From the NCBI GenBank assembly GCA_017626495.1, contig JAGAIP010000003.1, positions 186,001-250,000 on the forward strand: a stretch of 64,000 nt of DNA. The letters run 5' to 3'. The position numbers were made by a program, and so were the translations under genes. Positions 47,743 to 55,950 of the stretch are shown here, piece after piece. The first letter of the stretch is position 1, and the number at the start of each line of letters is the position of its first letter. The DNA is from Clostridia bacterium (GTDB taxonomy: Bacteria; Bacillota; Clostridia; Christensenellales; Borkfalkiaceae). The notes beneath the pieces are model-generated. The model worked only from the letters and a program-made list of their open reading frames with translations, had not been told where the DNA came from and did not search any database.

Positions 47743-48729
47743 TTAAACTTCCGCTCTTACTCTGCGAAGAAGATCGGGATTTCCGACGATTCTGCCGCCG
47801 CCGAGAATGACGGACATCTGAGGTTCGTCCCCGACGTGAACTTCCATTTGCAGATGCTCTTCAAAGTATTCGCGGATTCCGGCAAGTTTTGCCATACCGC
47901 CCGTGAGAAGAATGCCGTTTTTACGAATGACGGCGGACACTTCCGCAGGGAGCTTGCCGAGCACGAGGAGCGCATACTCGATCACCTTATCGACGTGCGT
48001 TTGCAGGGGGAAGAAAAGATTGGGAGCGTAGACGACCTTGGAGCAAGGCTTTCCGCTCGCGATGTCTCTGCCGTTGACGATCATACTTTGGTTGTCCGTA
48101 TCGTAGAGACTGCCGACGTTGACTTTCACGCTCTCGCTCGTCAAAGAGCCGATTTTAATGCCGTAAAGATCGGCGATATGGTCGATGATATGTACGTCGA
48201 TGGAACCTCCGCCGACGTTCATGGAAATTCCCGCGATGATTCCGTCGGAAGAGAATGCGGCGATATCCGTCACGCCGTGTCCGATGTCGATGCAGAACGC
48301 AGGCTCGTATACCGTGAAGGGAACGTCGTCTCCGAGCCCTGCGAGAATGGGGCTTTCCACGAAAGAGACTTTACGGAGCGCGCAACCCGACGCGATTTTC
48401 TGATAGAGCGCTTTTTGCCCTGCGTCGAAACCGCAATGCACGCAGAACACAGCCTCCGCGCCGCTCTTGACGCCCGCTTTATACAGGAAGTGATTGAGCA
48501 TGGTGGTGGCGAGCTTTTCGTTGACGATCTCCCCCTCGAATACGGGGAACACGGTCGTCGTATAATCGGACGTCTTGCCGATGAGCTGTTTCGCGTCCTT
48601 TCCGATCGCTTTAACGGTGGAATCGGCGGTATTGACCGCCACGCAGGAAGGTTCGACGAGGACGATGCCGCTGCCGATTTTATAAATTTTGGTCACGGAA
48701 GATCCGAGATCGATTGCAATTTTATTCAT
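47743..48729 (-). CDS. MreB-like actin homologue, divergent
   Basis: A 328-residue bacterial actin fold protein. Phosphate-1 loop is KIAIDLGSSVTKIYKIGSG, phosphate-2 FCIDIGHGVTDIAAFS, a glycine-rich MNVGGGSIDVHI loop and the adenosine motif GILLTGGMAKLAGI. It departs from true MreB (GTANT loop replaced by GSSVT, 328 instead of about 340 residues), so it could be a specialised MreB/Mbl or another actin-like filament protein. The overlap with maf by 8 bases recalls the usual maf-radC-mreB neighbourhood, which supports a cell-shape role. Confidence 0.82.
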   Translation of the reverse strand: MNKIAIDLGSSVTKIYKIGSGIVLVEPSCVAVNTADSTVKAIGKDAKQLIGKTSDYTTTVFPVFEGEIVNEKLATTMLNHFLYKAGVKSGAEAVFCVHCGFDAGQKALYQKIASGCALRKVSFVESPILAGLGDDVPFTVYEPAFCIDIGHGVTDIAAFSSDGIIAGISMNVGGGSIDVHIIDHIADLYGIKIGSLTSESVKVNVGSLYDTDNQSMIVNGRDIASGKPCSKVVYAPNLFFPLQTHVDKVIEYALLVLGKLPAEVSAVIRKNGILLTGGMAKLAGIREYFEEHLQMEVHVGDEPQMSVILGGGRIVGNPDLLRRVRAEV

Positions 48730-49270
48730 GGAATATTACCTCCGGAAAATCTTTGATGAGTTCGAGGGGAAGTCCGACCACGTTGGAGTAACTCCCTTCA
48801 TAAGAGAACACGATACCCTCGTCCTGTATGCCGTACGCTCCTGCCTTGTCCATGGGCGAACCCGTGGCGACGTAGGCGTCGATTTGTTCTTCTGTGAGGG
48901 CGGAAATCCTCACTTTCGTTTCGTCGTATGCGACGGTTTCTACGCCGCCCCGAATTACGCACACGCCCGTGTATACGCTGTGCTCCTTTCCCGCAAGGGC
49001 TCTGAGCATTTCCTTTGCGTGCTCTTCGGACTTCGGCTTTCCGAGCACGACGCCGCCGAGCACGACCACGGTATCCGCGCCGAGCACGGTCGCATCGGGA
49101 TAACGGGAATATACTTCTTCCGCTTTTCTTGCCGAAAGACGCATGACGAGCTGTTCGGGTTTTTCCTCTTCGATCGTCTCGTCCGCAGACGAAGGAATTA
49201 CCTCAAACTTAGAAATCAGGGAAGAGAGCAATTCTCTTCTGCGCGGAGACGCGCTTGCCAAAATAAACAT
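48722..49270 (-). CDS. maf: Maf-family nucleoside triphosphate pyrophosphatase
   Basis: House-cleaning enzyme hydrolysing dTTP, UTP or modified nucleotides. The 182 residues show the signature MFILASASPRRRELLSSL, SADETIEEEKPE, VLGADTVVVLGGVVLGKP and the late VVGLPLELI. The start at 49270 has AGG with suitable spacing; the seven codons before it are not conserved. It overlaps the MreB-like gene. Confidence 0.95.
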   Translation of the reverse strand: MFILASASPRRRELLSSLISKFEVIPSSADETIEEEKPEQLVMRLSARKAEEVYSRYPDATVLGADTVVVLGGVVLGKPKSEEHAKEMLRALAGKEHSVYTGVCVIRGGVETVAYDETKVRISALTEEQIDAYVATGSPMDKAGAYGIQDEGIVFSYEGSYSNVVGLPLELIKDFPEVIFHE

Positions 49271-49282
49271 ACCGACCTGTTG

Positions 49283-49311
49283 AAAGCACAACCGTAAGAC
49301 AGTTGTGCTTT
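49283..49311. terminator. Terminator after the Ppx/GppA gene
   Basis: AAAGCACAAC and GTTGTGCTTT arms around 9 bases, with TTTTTT on the plus side and A residues opposite; only a short T run on the minus side, where the upstream gene ends. Confidence 0.7.
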
Positions 49312-49320
49312 TTTCATAAA

Positions 49321-50835
49321 TTAAAGGATTTCGAGATTTTTTCTGAACGCGCGCTTAAATTCAAGACTTGCTTCCATCGCGTCTCTGATCTCCAAAGTGA
49401 CGTCCCCTTCCACTTCCGTCTTCATGATAACGGAATCTCCGAGCACGTCGCAGTTGATGCTCTTGATGCATGACGACATAGATCTGTCGAGGCTCTCTGC
49501 GATGCGCAGCATGACGCCGAGTTTTTTCACCGCGTCGAGATCCTCTTCTAAAACAATGTCCTTATACTTTGCCCATTCCGCCTGATTGAAGTCGTCTTTC
49601 TTGTGCTGTCCCGCAACGAATGCGGCGAGCACGATCTCGCGATGCGTCGCGCCGTACAGCGTGGAATTGAGGATCATGTACTGACTGTGTTTGGGATGAT
49701 CGTAGTACTTCATTCTCAGTCCGCAATCATGTAAGCTTGCCGCGATCTTCAAAACTTTGAGATACTGACGGGGGAATTTATGCAGGACGCGGAGCTGTTT
49801 GAAGAGCTGAACGCTCAGATATACCACTTGTTCGACATGTCTCTCGTTCTCGCCGTAATATTTGACGAGGGAAAGAAGAGAATAGCTGAGCACGTCGGAA
49901 AGAGGCTTTTCGACGGTGGAGGGCAACGCCTGATTGAACATGATACCCTCGCGGAGCCCCGCGCTGGAAATCGAAAAGCTTTCGAGCCCCGTATACTTCA
50001 TGAACGCGTGCATGACGGCGAGCGCCGCAGGCAGAATGTCTGCGCGGCTTGCGGAGATTCCCTTGATCTTCTTTCTCTTCTCGACGTCGAGGACTTTCAC
50101 GGTATTGTTGATATATTCGAAATCCTCCGCGTTGATGGCGTAATTATGCACGATGTCCAGGGGATACTTTTTGATCATCTTGCTGATTTTGAAGAGACTT
50201 CTGAACGAACCGCCCACGCCGATCATCTGTACGTCGGGATCCATCTCTTTGAGCCAGGTAATCTTTTCGATCTGTTCCAAGAAGAATGCTTCCACCTTGT
50301 CGGCGATCTCTTCGGGCTTTACGTCCTCCCCTGCGAACATATCTGTGAGCGTCACCGCGCCGAACGGCAGAGTTTCGTAAAAGAGAATGTTTCTTCTGTT
50401 GTAATAAACGATCTTCGTACTTCCGCCGCCGATTTCCAAGATGACGCCCTTAGGAACGTCCATCGTGTTGATGACGCCGCGATAGACGTACAGCGCCTCG
50501 TCCTCTGCGGAAAGGACGGAAATGCGGATTCCCACGGTCGCCTGAATTTCATCGAGAAAAGACCGCTGGTTCTTTGCCCGACGGACTGCCGCGGTCGCCA
50601 CTGCGATGATACGGGTAACGCCGTTCGCGTCGCAGAGCTTTTTGAACATTTTAAGCGTTTTGATCGTTTCGGCAACTCTCTGCGGCTTCAAAAAACCGTC
50701 CCGTTCCATATCCTGACCGAGACGTACCGTTTCTTTGAGTTCTTCCGCCACCATAAAAAAACCATCTGCGAACAAATTGACGATCACGAGACGGGCGGAA
50801 TTTGATCCTAAATCAATAATGCCGATTTTTTCCAT
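49321..50835 (-). CDS. ppx: Ppx/GppA-family phosphatase with C-terminal HD-like domain
   Basis: Exopolyphosphatase or pppGpp phosphatase, 504 residues. ASKHA motifs: KIGIIDLGSNSARLVIVNL, ILEIGGGSTKIVYYNRR and the acid in VMIGVGG-like QMIGVGGSFRSL. The C-terminal part (from about 310) resembles the HD-type domain of long Ppx proteins with HDCGLRMKYYDHPKHSQYM. The start at 50835 is preceded by GAGG; upstream ATGs lack a site. It may connect polyphosphate or ppGpp levels with relA encoded elsewhere in the window. Confidence 0.92.
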   Translation of the reverse strand: MEKIGIIDLGSNSARLVIVNLFADGFFMVAEELKETVRLGQDMERDGFLKPQRVAETIKTLKMFKKLCDANGVTRIIAVATAAVRRAKNQRSFLDEIQATVGIRISVLSAEDEALYVYRGVINTMDVPKGVILEIGGGSTKIVYYNRRNILFYETLPFGAVTLTDMFAGEDVKPEEIADKVEAFFLEQIEKITWLKEMDPDVQMIGVGGSFRSLFKISKMIKKYPLDIVHNYAINAEDFEYINNTVKVLDVEKRKKIKGISASRADILPAALAVMHAFMKYTGLESFSISSAGLREGIMFNQALPSTVEKPLSDVLSYSLLSLVKYYGENERHVEQVVYLSVQLFKQLRVLHKFPRQYLKVLKIAASLHDCGLRMKYYDHPKHSQYMILNSTLYGATHREIVLAAFVAGQHKKDDFNQAEWAKYKDIVLEEDLDAVKKLGVMLRIAESLDRSMSSCIKSINCDVLGDSVIMKTEVEGDVTLEIRDAMEASLEFKRAFRKNLEIL

Positions 50836-50896
50836 TTGCTGATACCTCATGTGCCGTTTGCACATCTAAAAATACTCTATAAAACTGGGCATGTCC

Positions 50897-50982: not shown

Positions 50983-51640
50983 CATCTTTCTTATTTTGCA
51001 GTGAAAGGAGCAGAGTCGTAAGTTCCCGAAAGGAAGAAACGACGTAAGTTGCCCCCGCGCGTTCGAGTTCTCCCTCTTCGGCGTATCCTGTCAGAATACC
51101 GATACAGGGAAGAGAGCATGCTTTCGCCCCTTCTGCGTCGTGTTTTCTGTCTCCGACCATGACGCAATCTTCTTTTTCCGCGCCAAGGAGCCTCATCGCC
51201 TCTTCGATGACGAGCGTCTTGCTGTTGAGAGAGCCGTCAAGTCCGCTTCCAACGACCGCGTCCATGTACTTCGTCATGCCGAATTTATCGAGGATCTTAT
51301 CGACGAAGGGCTTGGGTTTGGAAGATGCGACCGCCATTCGAAACCCCGCTTTTTTGAGCTCGTCCAGCATGGGAAGAACGCCGTCCAAAGGAATATTCTC
51401 CGCCCAGCCGACCGAGCCGTAGCGTTCGCGATACTTGCGAACGGCGAAACCGATTCTGTCCTCGGGAAGATGGTATATCTCCGAAAAAGAATAGGTGAGG
51501 GGAGGCCCGATGCAGGAACGGAGTTTTTGGGGATCGTCGTCGAACACTTGACACTGTTCGAGCGCGTATAGAATGCTTTTCGTGATGCCTTCGTAGGGAT
51601 CGGTCAAGGTGCCGTCCAAATCAAACAAGATGGTATTCAT
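50969..51640 (-). CDS. HAD-family phosphatase (phosphoglycolate phosphatase-like)
   Basis: A 223-residue HAD hydrolase of the Gph/PpaX type: motif I TILFDLDGTLTDPYEGITKS, cap domain, motif II MAVASSKPKPFVDKIL and motif IV VMVGDRKHDAEGAKACSLP. The small alpha-helical cap is typical of phosphoglycolate and beta-phosphoglucomutase-like enzymes; the substrate is not resolved. Its ATG overlaps the stop of the second TSUP half gene (ATGA), so it belongs to that operon. Confidence 0.9.
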   Translation of the reverse strand: MNTILFDLDGTLTDPYEGITKSILYALEQCQVFDDDPQKLRSCIGPPLTYSFSEIYHLPEDRIGFAVRKYRERYGSVGWAENIPLDGVLPMLDELKKAGFRMAVASSKPKPFVDKILDKFGMTKYMDAVVGSGLDGSLNSKTLVIEEAMRLLGAEKEDCVMVGDRKHDAEGAKACSLPCIGILTGYAEEGELERAGATYVVSSFRELTTLLLSLQNKKDEKKD

Positions 51641-52011
51641 GATTCTATTTTATCCGATTTTTTTCGTTTTGTAAACTGTATCACCGCCAAAATCATCAAA
51701 AAAGCGCCGAATAATCTCTTTAATTTCACACCGTCGAGAAAAGACGCGATCAGGCTCCCTATAACGGAAAAGAGAAGCGCCGGAACCGCATAGAACGTCG
51801 CCCGTTTCTTTTTCAGAAGTCCCCGTTTTTCGTAACTGATCAGGGAGACGAGGGCGAGCGGCAAAAACGAAAGGAGATTGATTCCCTGCGCCGCATGCTG
51901 TTCCACCCCGACGAGCCGAAGCAGAGGAATGAGCACCGTTCCCCCTCCCATGCCCATACCGCCCGGAATTCCGCCGATGACTCCGATGAGAACATAGAGA
52001 TAAAAGATCAA
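51637..52011 (-). CDS. TSUP (TauE/SafE) half-size permease, second half
   Basis: About 124 residues with four membrane helices and the TSUP motif GGIPGGMGMGGGTVLIPLL near the N-terminus. TSUP proteins are anion or sulfur-compound exporters or importers of about 250 residues with two such repeats; here each repeat is a separate gene. The proposed start is TTG at 52011, which overlaps the stop of the first half (TTGA); a GTG at 52023 is the alternative. Upstream in-frame sequence is not protein-like. Confidence 0.78.
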   Translation of the reverse strand: MIFYLYVLIGVIGGIPGGMGMGGGTVLIPLLRLVGVEQHAAQGINLLSFLPLALVSLISYEKRGLLKKKRATFYAVPALLFSVIGSLIASFLDGVKLKRLFGAFLMILAVIQFTKRKKSDKIES

Positions 52012-52364
52012 AGGAGCATCCACGCTCCCGCAAGAAACATGAGCGCCGAAAAGGCGTACCCCACCAAGTCTGACGCGAGCGCGCACAAAAGGCGCGTTCC
52101 GAGATACGCTCCGAGCGTACTGCCCAGCGCGACGGGAACAAACACGCTCGGGGCAAGGCGTTGCTTCCAAAGATACACGGCGAGCGCGGCTATGCTGATG
52201 GGAAGAATGACTAAAATTGCCGTGGCGTGCGCCTCTTTCACGTCCAGTTCCCGTTCGAGAAGAGGAACGACGATCATTCCGCCTCCGCCGCCGAACAGAC
52301 CGTTTATCAGTCCCGTCAAACCGCCTCCGAGTACTTTCCCCGATTTCTCCCAACCTTTTTGCAT
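52008..52364 (-). CDS. TSUP (TauE/SafE) half-size permease, first half
   Basis: About 118 residues with four helices and the matching repeat motif GLINGLFGGGGGMIVVPLLE. With the following gene it probably forms one transporter by pairing of halves. The start is uncertain: ATG at 52364 is used; a TTG at 52409 lengthens it by 15 residues. The substrate is unknown. Confidence 0.76.
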   Translation of the reverse strand: MQKGWEKSGKVLGGGLTGLINGLFGGGGGMIVVPLLERELDVKEAHATAILVILPISIAALAVYLWKQRLAPSVFVPVALGSTLGAYLGTRLLCALASDLVGYAFSALMFLAGAWMLL

Positions 52365-52450
52365 TTCCTTTCGTTCCCCTTTTTCCCATAGTTTTTGTAT
52401 CTCCCTCAAAAAATATCACGAAATATTTTGGAAAAACGAACGCTTATTAG

Positions 52451-52479
52451 TTGCAAAAAAGGCGAATTTATATTACAAT
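52451..52479 (+). promoter_or_regulatory. Promoter of the large surface lipoprotein gene
   Basis: TTGCAA (52451-52456), 17-base spacer, TACAAT (52474-52479); leader of about 50 bases to the ATG at 52537. Confidence 0.7.
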
Positions 52480-52536
52480 AGGAAAAGTTATAAGTATAAG
52501 TTTGCCTATATCAAAAAAACATACAAGGTAGCAGAT

Positions 52537-55500
52537 ATGACACGAAAAAAAGTTGCATTTTCCAAGGCACACAGGGTAGCGACGGTCGTCCTTTCTTCCG
52601 TTTTGTTCTGTATGCCCGTCGTCATGCTCGGCGGCTGTTCTTCGGAGGAAGACACGAACAAAGACTCGACGACCACGCAGACGGACACCCAACGGATCGC
52701 CAACGCGAATTTTGAATACTTTGAGAAGAACGACGGCAAGAACGCGATCATCACGAGCATAGACGGCTGGTCGAAATCGGTCGGTTTATCCGCGTCGGGA
52801 GACAGCGCGTCCTCCTCGATTCGCGCCTCGGGCATCGTCGATACGAACAAGAGCGCATGGGAAAACCTTACCGCCTCTTCCGTCGTCCTGACGGACGAAA
52901 ACGTGGACGCGGAATGGGACAACTCATCCGTATTCGACCGCCTCACTTACTATAAAAAGTACTCCGTCGATTCTACATCCGATTACGAAAACTACGTTCC
53001 CTATAACGTCACGATCGACGACGTTCCTTCCTGCGAGAATCCCGGAACGCACGATTATAACGCGACCGAGGATCGGGACGAGGATACCAACGTTCTGATG
53101 CTGCACAACTACCGTTCGGACAGATACGGCACGGCGCAGAAATACACCTCTTCCACCACCGTCAACCTGACCGCAGGCACGAGCGCAAAGCTCTCCGTCT
53201 GGGTAAAAACTTCCGATCTGACCTTCAACGGCGGCACGGAAGTAAACGGCAACAGGGGCGCTTACATCTCCGTTTCGCAGACGTTTTCGGGCTATACCTT
53301 GGAGCCTCTTCTCATTCAGAACATCGACACTTCTTCCGTCACCGAGAACAACGGCTGGAAGCTGTATACCATGTATCTGAAAGGAAACGACCTCAGCGAT
53401 ACCACGTTCCAGATGACCTTGGGTCTCGGGCAGGGCGGCGGAAGCGACAAATTCGGGTATGTAGAAGGATATGCGTTCTTCGACGACGTTTCCTATGAAA
53501 TTCTGACCAACGAGGAATACGATGCATATACCGAGGGCGTAGATACCGTTTATGTCTCCGAAAAGACGGAAATGAGAACGTTCGACGCGGACAAAACAGA
53601 CAAGACTGTATTTGCGTCCGACCTCTCTTTTGAAAGAACGAAGCTTTCCTCTCAAAGCGTTTCGTTTGCGCCCACCAAGGAAAAGTCCGGCACGGTATAT
53701 TATACCTCCGTTCCCGACGGCGTAAACAACGTATACAAGGGACTTTCCCTCGACACGGCAAGCGACACGTTCAAATCGGCAAAGTGGAACGATCTGATCG
53801 CGTCGGGCGGAAACGTTTACTTCGATCAATTCGTCAAGGACAATCAGGTTTATCCTTTCGATAACGAAAGAACCATTCTTCTCCTTTCCGCAGGCGGCGG
53901 CGCTTACACCGCGAGCGTAACCGCTCCCTCGTTCACGTTGCAGGCAAACACGAAGGCAATCCTTTCCTTCTACGTCAAAACTTCCAAGCTCAACGGATAT
54001 ACGGGCGCAAGCGCGACCATCGTTGACGGCGAAGAGAGAACGACCATCGCGGCATTCGACAGCACGACCGTAGCGACGGTAGATACCGACAACGAAAAGG
54101 ATATTTTCGCCGGTTGGGTAAGATGCACGTTCCTCATTCAGAACGAGACGAAGAGTTCTAAGACCTTCTCTTTGGAACTTTCTTACGGTCCCACTTCCAT
54201 CGTAGGAACGACGAACGCAAGTTACCTTCCCGGATATGCGGCGTTCACGAACCTCACGTTCGACGAGGTGGACGACGAAAGATTCGCGTCCGTTCCCACC
54301 GGAACCTACTGCTCGTCCGTATCTCTTTTCAACAACACCAAAACGTCTTCCGCTTCGGGATTCGACGACGTAGACTATTCCGACGAAACTTCCATCGAAA
54401 ACGGACTTGCGATTCCCAAGAACTATACGGGCGTCGAGGGCGGCAGCTCCTACGTCGGCGGAGAAGATTACTGCTATGCGAACTCCAACGAGAACGCAGG
54501 TCTCCTCAACAAGAACTACGCAAACGCCTACTGGAACAACAACGAAACGTGGATGTCCTCTTTCTTGAAGATCGCGTCCGCGAACGACGTTTCCCTGACG
54601 AACGCGCTCAATGCAGATAACTGGTGGAACAAAATCATCGGATCGGCAAACCAGCCTCTTCTCATCGTCAACACGATCGAACAGGCTTACGGATATATCG
54701 GTTCCGTTCAGGCGCTTTCCGCAAACAGCTATACCGCAGTTTCCGTGAGAGTCAAGGTTTCCGAAGGCGCGATCGCTTACGTATACCTTATGGACGCGTC
54801 TTCGCTCTCCGACGGTTACAACACGCCTCTGACGATTTCTACTCCCAACGTCTCTTACTGGTACGACGATGACAACAACGTATGTTCGGTAGATCCTTCT
54901 TCCGACGACTTCAACGAAAAGACGGACGTCGTATATCTCTATAACAACAACGACGATTCTCTTCCCGTCAACAGCCTTTACAAGAGAGCGGACGGTGCGG
55001 ACGACAAGAACTACGCGAACCTTTCAAATTACGAAAAAGACGAAGACGGCAACCTCGTCACCGAGGCAGGAACGGTTGCGTTCTGGTTCCACGACGGCGA
55101 GTACTATGCGCACTACAATGAGGATAAGGACGTTTACTCCGTTCCCGTATCCGATTTCGATCACGCGTACGCAAGATACACCGCTCAGGCAAAGGAATGC
55201 GTGACCGTCATCGACGGAAACGATCCTACCCTTGCAAACAAGTGGATCACGGTCAACTTCTTCATTCATACGGCGGCAGACTCGAAGAACTACCGTCTCG
55301 AAGTGTTCAGCGGCTCTCGCGACGGTTCCGTCAAGAGCGCAAAGGACAGCTACGTTTTATTCGACAGCGTTTCCGCTCCTTCCCTCTCTTCGAACTATGC
55401 AGGACTGCTTGCTGACGCGATCGAATCCATTCAGGAAAACGCTCCCGCCGATTACAAGGAAGACGACGTAAAGTGGTATGAGAATGCGATCTACTACACC

Positions 55501-55950
55501 TACTCCTTCCACGACGACGCAAGCTATCTCCGTTACGACGAGGCAAACGACGCCGACGACGTAGGCGACAGATATACCGACTATACGCAGTCCTCCTATT
55601 CCGAAACGGTCGCTTACCTGTACTACGAGGACAGAACGACGGATCCCGAGAACTACTCCTTCTCCGCGTTCGTCGACTATTCCCCCATCGACGTAACCGT
55701 TCCCGCGTCCGAAGTTGACACGGATGACGACGTTGAGGAAGAAGAGAAAGTAGAACCTGCTTACAACGTATGGCTTCTCGCATCTTCCATCATTCTCGCA
55801 GTCGTGCTCTTTGCGGTAGCGATTATTCTTGCGGTGAGAAAGATCATGAAGAAGGTCAGAATCAACAAGATTCACGCGACCAACGCTTACGTAGCCGTAG
55901 AACGCAAAAAGAAACATTATAAAAAGACTTTGAAACTCAAAGACGAATAA
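52537..55950 (+). CDS. Large surface lipoprotein with repeated beta-sandwich modules and C-terminal membrane anchor
   Basis: A 1137-residue protein I cannot assign to a named family. It has a lipoprotein signal (residues 1-34, VVMLGGC with C34 as lipidated cysteine), a Ser/Thr/Asp linker, a very acidic Asp/Ser/Tyr-rich ectodomain, then one membrane helix near 1078-1100 (LLASSIILAVVLFAVAIILA) and a basic cytosolic tail of about 35 residues. Three segments look alike: about 209-320, 466-578 and 724-948, each with a strand of the type LSVWVKTSDL, LSFYVKTSKL or VSVRVKVSEG and ending in FFDDVSYE, AAFTNLTFDE or VLFDSVSAP, as in carbohydrate-binding jelly rolls. Function as an adhesin or glycan-binding protein is inference. 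AAGGT precedes the ATG. It is transcribed alone and ends in a terminator. Confidence 0.85.
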   Translation: MTRKKVAFSKAHRVATVVLSSVLFCMPVVMLGGCSSEEDTNKDSTTTQTDTQRIANANFEYFEKNDGKNAIITSIDGWSKSVGLSASGDSASSSIRASGIVDTNKSAWENLTASSVVLTDENVDAEWDNSSVFDRLTYYKKYSVDSTSDYENYVPYNVTIDDVPSCENPGTHDYNATEDRDEDTNVLMLHNYRSDRYGTAQKYTSSTTVNLTAGTSAKLSVWVKTSDLTFNGGTEVNGNRGAYISVSQTFSGYTLEPLLIQNIDTSSVTENNGWKLYTMYLKGNDLSDTTFQMTLGLGQGGGSDKFGYVEGYAFFDDVSYEILTNEEYDAYTEGVDTVYVSEKTEMRTFDADKTDKTVFASDLSFERTKLSSQSVSFAPTKEKSGTVYYTSVPDGVNNVYKGLSLDTASDTFKSAKWNDLIASGGNVYFDQFVKDNQVYPFDNERTILLLSAGGGAYTASVTAPSFTLQANTKAILSFYVKTSKLNGYTGASATIVDGEERTTIAAFDSTTVATVDTDNEKDIFAGWVRCTFLIQNETKSSKTFSLELSYGPTSIVGTTNASYLPGYAAFTNLTFDEVDDERFASVPTGTYCSSVSLFNNTKTSSASGFDDVDYSDETSIENGLAIPKNYTGVEGGSSYVGGEDYCYANSNENAGLLNKNYANAYWNNNETWMSSFLKIASANDVSLTNALNADNWWNKIIGSANQPLLIVNTIEQAYGYIGSVQALSANSYTAVSVRVKVSEGAIAYVYLMDASSLSDGYNTPLTISTPNVSYWYDDDNNVCSVDPSSDDFNEKTDVVYLYNNNDDSLPVNSLYKRADGADDKNYANLSNYEKDEDGNLVTEAGTVAFWFHDGEYYAHYNEDKDVYSVPVSDFDHAYARYTAQAKECVTVIDGNDPTLANKWITVNFFIHTAADSKNYRLEVFSGSRDGSVKSAKDSYVLFDSVSAPSLSSNYAGLLADAIESIQENAPADYKEDDVKWYENAIYYTYSFHDDASYLRYDEANDADDVGDRYTDYTQSSYSETVAYLYYEDRTTDPENYSFSAFVDYSPIDVTVPASEVDTDDDVEEEEKVEPAYNVWLLASSIILAVVLFAVAIILAVRKIMKKVRINKIHATNAYVAVERKKKHYKKTLKLKDE

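Follow-up and report, generated by a model that had tools for sequence, protein, structure and literature searches.

A doubly anchored envelope protein with carbohydrate-binding-type modules encoded beside a split TSUP permease in Clostridia

TSUP proteins (TauE/SafE, PF01925) are poorly characterised, predicted transporters of sulfur-based molecules (PMC5840216). At the locus described here two half-genes match this family above cut-off and keep its glycine-rich motifs; unlike the known family, the permease comes as two overlapping four-helix genes and is paired with a large extracytoplasmic protein. TSUP substrates are sulfite, sulfonates and related anions; to our knowledge, a TSUP system with a large extracytoplasmic partner has not been described. 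The partner itself is closest to the carbohydrate-binding modules (CBMs) of families 4, 9, 16 and 22 (Pfam CBM_4_9, PF02018), which it resembles in its jelly-roll fold (Z 11-12), NxxFE opening and FDD-type closing strand, and its tandem arrangement recalls that of CBM22-1/CBM22-2 (4xup). Unlike CBM_4_9 proteins, it has no attached catalytic domain and carries a double membrane anchor. A further likeness is to the Sus-type SGBPs of Bacteroidetes, in which lipoprotein-anchored tandem beta-sandwich domains also stand beside a transporter, and SGBP-B is among the weak fold matches of the third module (7kwc, Z 8.4). SGBPs, however, have a single anchor, and the present locus shows no SusC-type transporter and belongs to another phylum with other neighbours. 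CBM folds and TSUP permeases are known components; in the literature searched we found no description of a split TSUP, of a TSUP with a surface-protein partner, or of the combination of parts, double anchor and split-permease pairing found here.

The locus and its parts

The genes lie within the window, a 64,000-nucleotide stretch of DNA from a Clostridia bacterium (genome G000, contig C11). Their parts are as follows.

51637..52023, minus strand: TSUP C-half with GMGMGGGT motif; GTG 52023 is the likely start, which makes it overlap the N-half at that gene's end
52008..52409, minus strand: TSUP N-half (TauE/SafE, PF01925), four membrane spans predicted; starts at ATG 52364 or TTG 52409
52365..52536, no strand: divergent intergenic region separating the TSUP pair from the envelope-protein gene; a TTG 52409 start of the N-half would shorten it
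52537..55950, plus strand: envelope-protein gene, 1137 aa plus stop, open reading frame with ATG start
52537..52638, plus strand: lipoprotein signal peptide, residues 1-34, lipobox LGG-C with C34 (Cys in 25/25 homologues)
52687..53526, plus strand: module 1, CBM4/16/22-like jelly roll, residues ~51-330 (AlphaFold model, VIA-align)
53599..54306, plus strand: module 2, fold as module 1, residues ~355-590 (hhalign, strand pattern in the whole-protein model)
54310..55386, plus strand: module 3, fold as module 1 plus a long insertion, residues ~592-950 (separate model, VIA-align)
54805..55236, plus strand: insertion of module 3, residues ~757-900, a small beta-rich subdomain (alignment, separate model)
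55396..55677, plus strand: juxtamembrane helix plus strands, residues ~954-1047 (separate module 3 model)
55759..55827, plus strand: C-terminal transmembrane helix, residues ~1075-1097 (alignment, AlphaFold model)
55828..55947, plus strand: basic cytosolic tail ending KKKHYKKTLKLKDE (alignment of homologues)

Read from its N-terminus, the envelope protein consists of a lipoprotein signal, an acidic Ser/Thr linker, three modules, a juxtamembrane segment, an acidic linker, a helix and a basic tail. Our reference alignment holds 25 full-length members including the window protein, to which the relatives are 37-61% identical. M1 and C34 are invariant throughout, and with conservation at such depth neither the anchors nor the reading frame can be attributed to chance. 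In several family homologues an in-frame TAA falls inside the listed match; at least in L003 and L018 it stands at the tail end, so that the protein ends there and no recoding is involved. A preliminary description of the gene had recognised no named family, and indeed Pfam, NCBIfam and PDB sequence searches returned no usable match to the envelope protein; CBM_4_9 (PF02018) was absent above the Pfam cut-off from the window protein and from the other 24 aligned members. Weak Pfam matches such as MHYT were rejected because they cover the membrane helix.

A double anchor and three related modules

The double anchor proposed in the preliminary description, a lipobox at C34 and a C-terminal helix with a basic tail, is borne out in the whole alignment: the cysteine of the LGGC lipobox is invariant (25/25), and the helix with its charged tail is present in every member (25/25), the window protein having a Lys/Arg-rich tail after the helix at residues ~1075-1097. 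Tied by a lipid on its N-terminal side and by a helix on its C-terminal side, the ectodomain would be forced into a loop. Lgt is encoded in the window's own genome (PF01790 match, E = 1.2e-50) and was found in 39/39 genomes tested. An LPxTG-type sortase motif is absent before the helix, where the residues are EEEEKVEPAYNV, and none is conserved among relatives.

Homologues with both anchors make up essentially the whole family and extend to several further families, lipobox and helix being kept in the inspected members of f3, f6, f10, f14, f16 and f24 and in L044 (f29). In f19 members an N-terminal membrane helix replaces the lipobox and the C-terminal helix is kept, so the double tether stays. 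The expected persistence of both anchors failed in f28, f32 and f20, whose members have a signal peptide without a clear lipobox and therefore possibly a single anchor. Loss of lipoprotein maturation was rejected as the cause of the missing f28 lipobox, since Lgt is present.

Tails related to the window tail are found in other genera, for example KRKRYIRKLRLEE, and a KRxY-type basic motif is a tail feature kept within f1. The f28 homologues (L053-L056, L067, L068) carry charged, coiled-coil-like cytosolic tails of more than 100 residues with a conserved YDR motif, whereas the window tail is short. Many homologues, both aligned relatives and members of L042-L089, have a short acidic-aromatic C-terminal motif (DENDPYND, DEFKD, EYDKYKDD) that is absent from the window protein; in those homologues it suggests a cytosolic binding partner.

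Three related CBM-like beta-sandwich segments, the third with a long insertion, had also been proposed, and both points stand. Modules 1 and 2 match each other by hhalign (probability 98.6%, P = 1e-15), and in a self-alignment residues 182-484 fall onto 442-743, in a register that reaches the start of module 3. Taken on its own, module 3 was unmatched by profile alignment (2.9-4.2%), and it is related to the other two through its model. The segments as originally delimited are real, each of them covering the second part of its module. The insertion was located at residues ~757-900 and holds invariant DP and AN(L) motifs.

The whole-protein AlphaFold model, built with 25 sequences, has a pLDDT of 78 overall and mostly 75-95 in the ectodomain, and structure prediction yielded the anticipated CBM-type jelly rolls in the models of modules 1 and 3. 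For the module 1 model (residues 51-330), VIA-align gave Z 11-12 to CBM4-2, CBM16, a CBM that binds hyaluronan and other jelly rolls of this kind; 130-179 residues were superposed at an rmsd of about 2.5-3.8. This module begins at an invariant NxxFE strand near residue 51 and ends at ~330, with an inserted stretch at ~100-180; its NxxFE opening and FFD closing strands are both invariant in the 25-member alignment, and we take them as reminiscent of the structural site for calcium known from CBMs of this type. Module 3 plus the juxtamembrane segment, folded separately with AlphaFold, reached pLDDT 86 and pTM 0.84, and VIA-align matched it to CBM61, CBM4, CBM16 and MAM domains at Z 8-9. Foldseek with the module 3 model alone gave no match at E <= 0.001; the assignment of module 3 is therefore less secure than that of module 1 and is based on VIA-align together with the register of the self-alignment. 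Seed storage and insecticidal crystal proteins, returned by Foldseek for the whole model, are generic jelly rolls and were rejected as relatives.

Distribution and pairing with a split TSUP permease

The envelope protein is present in 286 of the 301 genomes of the window's family and in 172 of the 173 that are of good quality, small ones included. At the order level a single-sequence search matched 78/297 genomes, and a profile of four other-family homologues matched 37/58 genomes of an order sample (mostly one genome per genus) at E <= 0.001, some of them weakly. A class sample of 196 genomes, a few order members among them, gave two genomes outside the order at E <= 1e-10, both with weak, single-module matches. 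Profile comparisons linked the window's family to f28 at 99.8% and to the f3/f6/f10/f32 set at 99.9%. One homologue from another family, L048, matches Pfam CBM_4_9 at 48.6 bits, above the cut-off of 25.9, and a profile that includes it is linked to the window's family at 99.9%. Therefore, the family is tied to CBMs by sequence. The remote homologues span 845 to 1789 aa and, according to self-alignment of one set, the longer ones hold more modules. Those of f24 (L049, L050; G323/G348) are long, at ~1640-1750 aa, and lack half-TSUP genes in their vicinity.

The preliminary description overlooked the divergent split TSUP pair, which is the strongest functional clue at this locus. It lies immediately upstream of the envelope gene, on the opposite strand. 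Two PF01925 matches above cut-off occur in G000 (best E = 1.1e-20), and half-specific HMMs place the halves in the frames 51640-52443 and 52011-52415. No single polypeptide at this locus contains both TSUP repeats, the N- and C-halves being separate overlapping ORFs. Apparent TSUP fusions in some genomes (open frames of e.g. 1557 or 1724 aa) were rejected, as they are best read as probable antisense frames of the GC-rich gene next to them; in L047, for comparison, the gene has the opposite orientation.

By the half-specific HMMs, 28 of the 29 family loci that could be tested have the split TSUP (the pair or its N-half) upstream in divergent orientation, the exception being L022; a 30th locus, L020, is cut at a contig end and was left out. 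At least 24 genomes of the 58-genome sample combine a strong match to the protein with half-TSUP genes, and the two are adjacent in all of them. In the reduced-genome family f28 both the protein and TSUP are carried by 20/21 genomes, the exception (G327) lacking the protein and having no TSUP match, and adjacency was seen in 15/15 protein/TSUP pairs with listed coordinates. Over a set of 34 loci, which was partly picked via TSUP and then inspected, so that the unbiased figures are those for the family, the 58-genome sample and f28, the order is divergent in 33 (L045 is tandem), and the flanks comprise 18 neighbour groups beyond the envelope gene and 12 beyond the permease.

Strong as it is in one part of the order, the pairing is not obligatory. 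Three genomes of the 58-genome sample, G323 and G348 of f24 and G357 of f6, have the protein and no half-TSUP genes, and inspected loci of f7, f9, f11, f12, f13, f21, f26, f27 and f31 have a split TSUP without such a neighbour, some of their contigs ending close by. Therefore, neither gene strictly needs the other. At L084 (G313 C14), L051 (G340 C35) and L043 (G319 C61) only the N-half stands beside the envelope gene, and the C-half is on another contig (C17, C75 and C6, respectively). Since the L084 and L043 contigs run well past the N-half, this separation is more than a contig break, and the envelope gene may be linked more tightly to the N-half than to the C-half.

Possible roles at the membrane

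The anatomy of the protein, its conservation and its conserved pairing with TSUP genes are direct observations. As an explanation of them we favour, with a probability of roughly 45%, a membrane-close canopy of putative glycan- or wall-polymer-binding modules that is the partner of the split TSUP permease. The diacylglycerol-linked cysteine at the N-terminus and the transmembrane helix at the C-terminus would hold the ectodomain at the membrane, and the three tandem carbohydrate-binding-type jelly rolls would form a canopy close above the cytoplasmic membrane. The ligand of the modules there would be a glycan or an anionic polymer of the wall, and they would act physically or functionally with the permease, whose two separate, predicted four-helix halves are encoded divergently next door and would move a small anion, a form of transport to which the conserved TSUP pairing points. 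With jelly rolls of ~4-5 nm each, the three would rise several nanometres only, below the wall in a typical monoderm, and such a low loop argues for a membrane-close role, in wall-polymer binding or as a transporter accessory domain, rather than for an adhesin.

These data suggest an undescribed two-part envelope system. A specific form of it, an undescribed transporter assembly of two four-helix TSUP subunits and a dedicated doubly anchored glycan-binding ectodomain subunit, kept through much of the order, is in our view doubtful. A near-universal core envelope protein that has no Pfam or NCBIfam family, and that keeps its place next to a split transporter in many families, is a lead on envelope organisation in mostly uncultured small-genome bacteria, and the poorly understood TSUP permeases would gain a possible extracytoplasmic partner.

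Adjacency can also stem from a shared divergent promoter. A rival reading, in which the TSUP genes share this alone, makes the envelope protein a structural wall-to-membrane tether or spacer, its modules binding peptidoglycan-linked polysaccharide and its basic tail a cytosolic partner. The near-universal presence of the gene in the family is consistent with such a role, as are tails conserved within lineages (KRxY-type in f1, coiled-coil-like and longer than 100 residues in f28). More is seen, however, than a shared promoter calls for: the TSUP adjacency outlasts rearrangement on both flanks, and G327 lacks both the protein and TSUP. We regard the tether as rather unlikely.

Distinctly unlikely is a surface protein turned towards the gut lumen, either a glycan-binding adhesin or one for nutrient capture, its TSUP neighbour being incidental. 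Glycan capture is a typical task of CBM folds, mucin- and hyaluronan-acting enzymes included, and two close relatives come from uncultured Clostridia, in one case from water-deer colon; presence in 172/173 good family genomes, small ones among them, is nevertheless unlike a niche-specific adhesin. Moreover, both ends are at the membrane, and three modules probably cannot cross a thick wall, so that a doubly tied loop would probably stay beneath it. The glycan-binding loop on the cell surface envisaged in the preliminary description is disfavoured for the same reason, as double membrane anchoring probably allows a rise of several nanometres only, and its tension-bearing adhesin finds no sign of adhesion at the locus. 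Next door there is neither a catalytic domain nor a sortase motif, nor any evident gene for sugar uptake. Finally, an envelope-state sensor, whose ectodomain would sense a ligand and signal via the helix to cytosolic partners with the TSUP pair as output or target, would accord with the long cytosolic tails conserved by lineage and is highly improbable, as Pfam gave no credible match to a kinase, sigma-factor or anti-sigma domain.

Beyond the permease, GppA-like and actin-like (ASKHA) genes recur, at 47746-50865 in the window and in L041, L053 and L054, where a MinD-like gene then follows them. Several other families have an rnf-type operon in this position instead.
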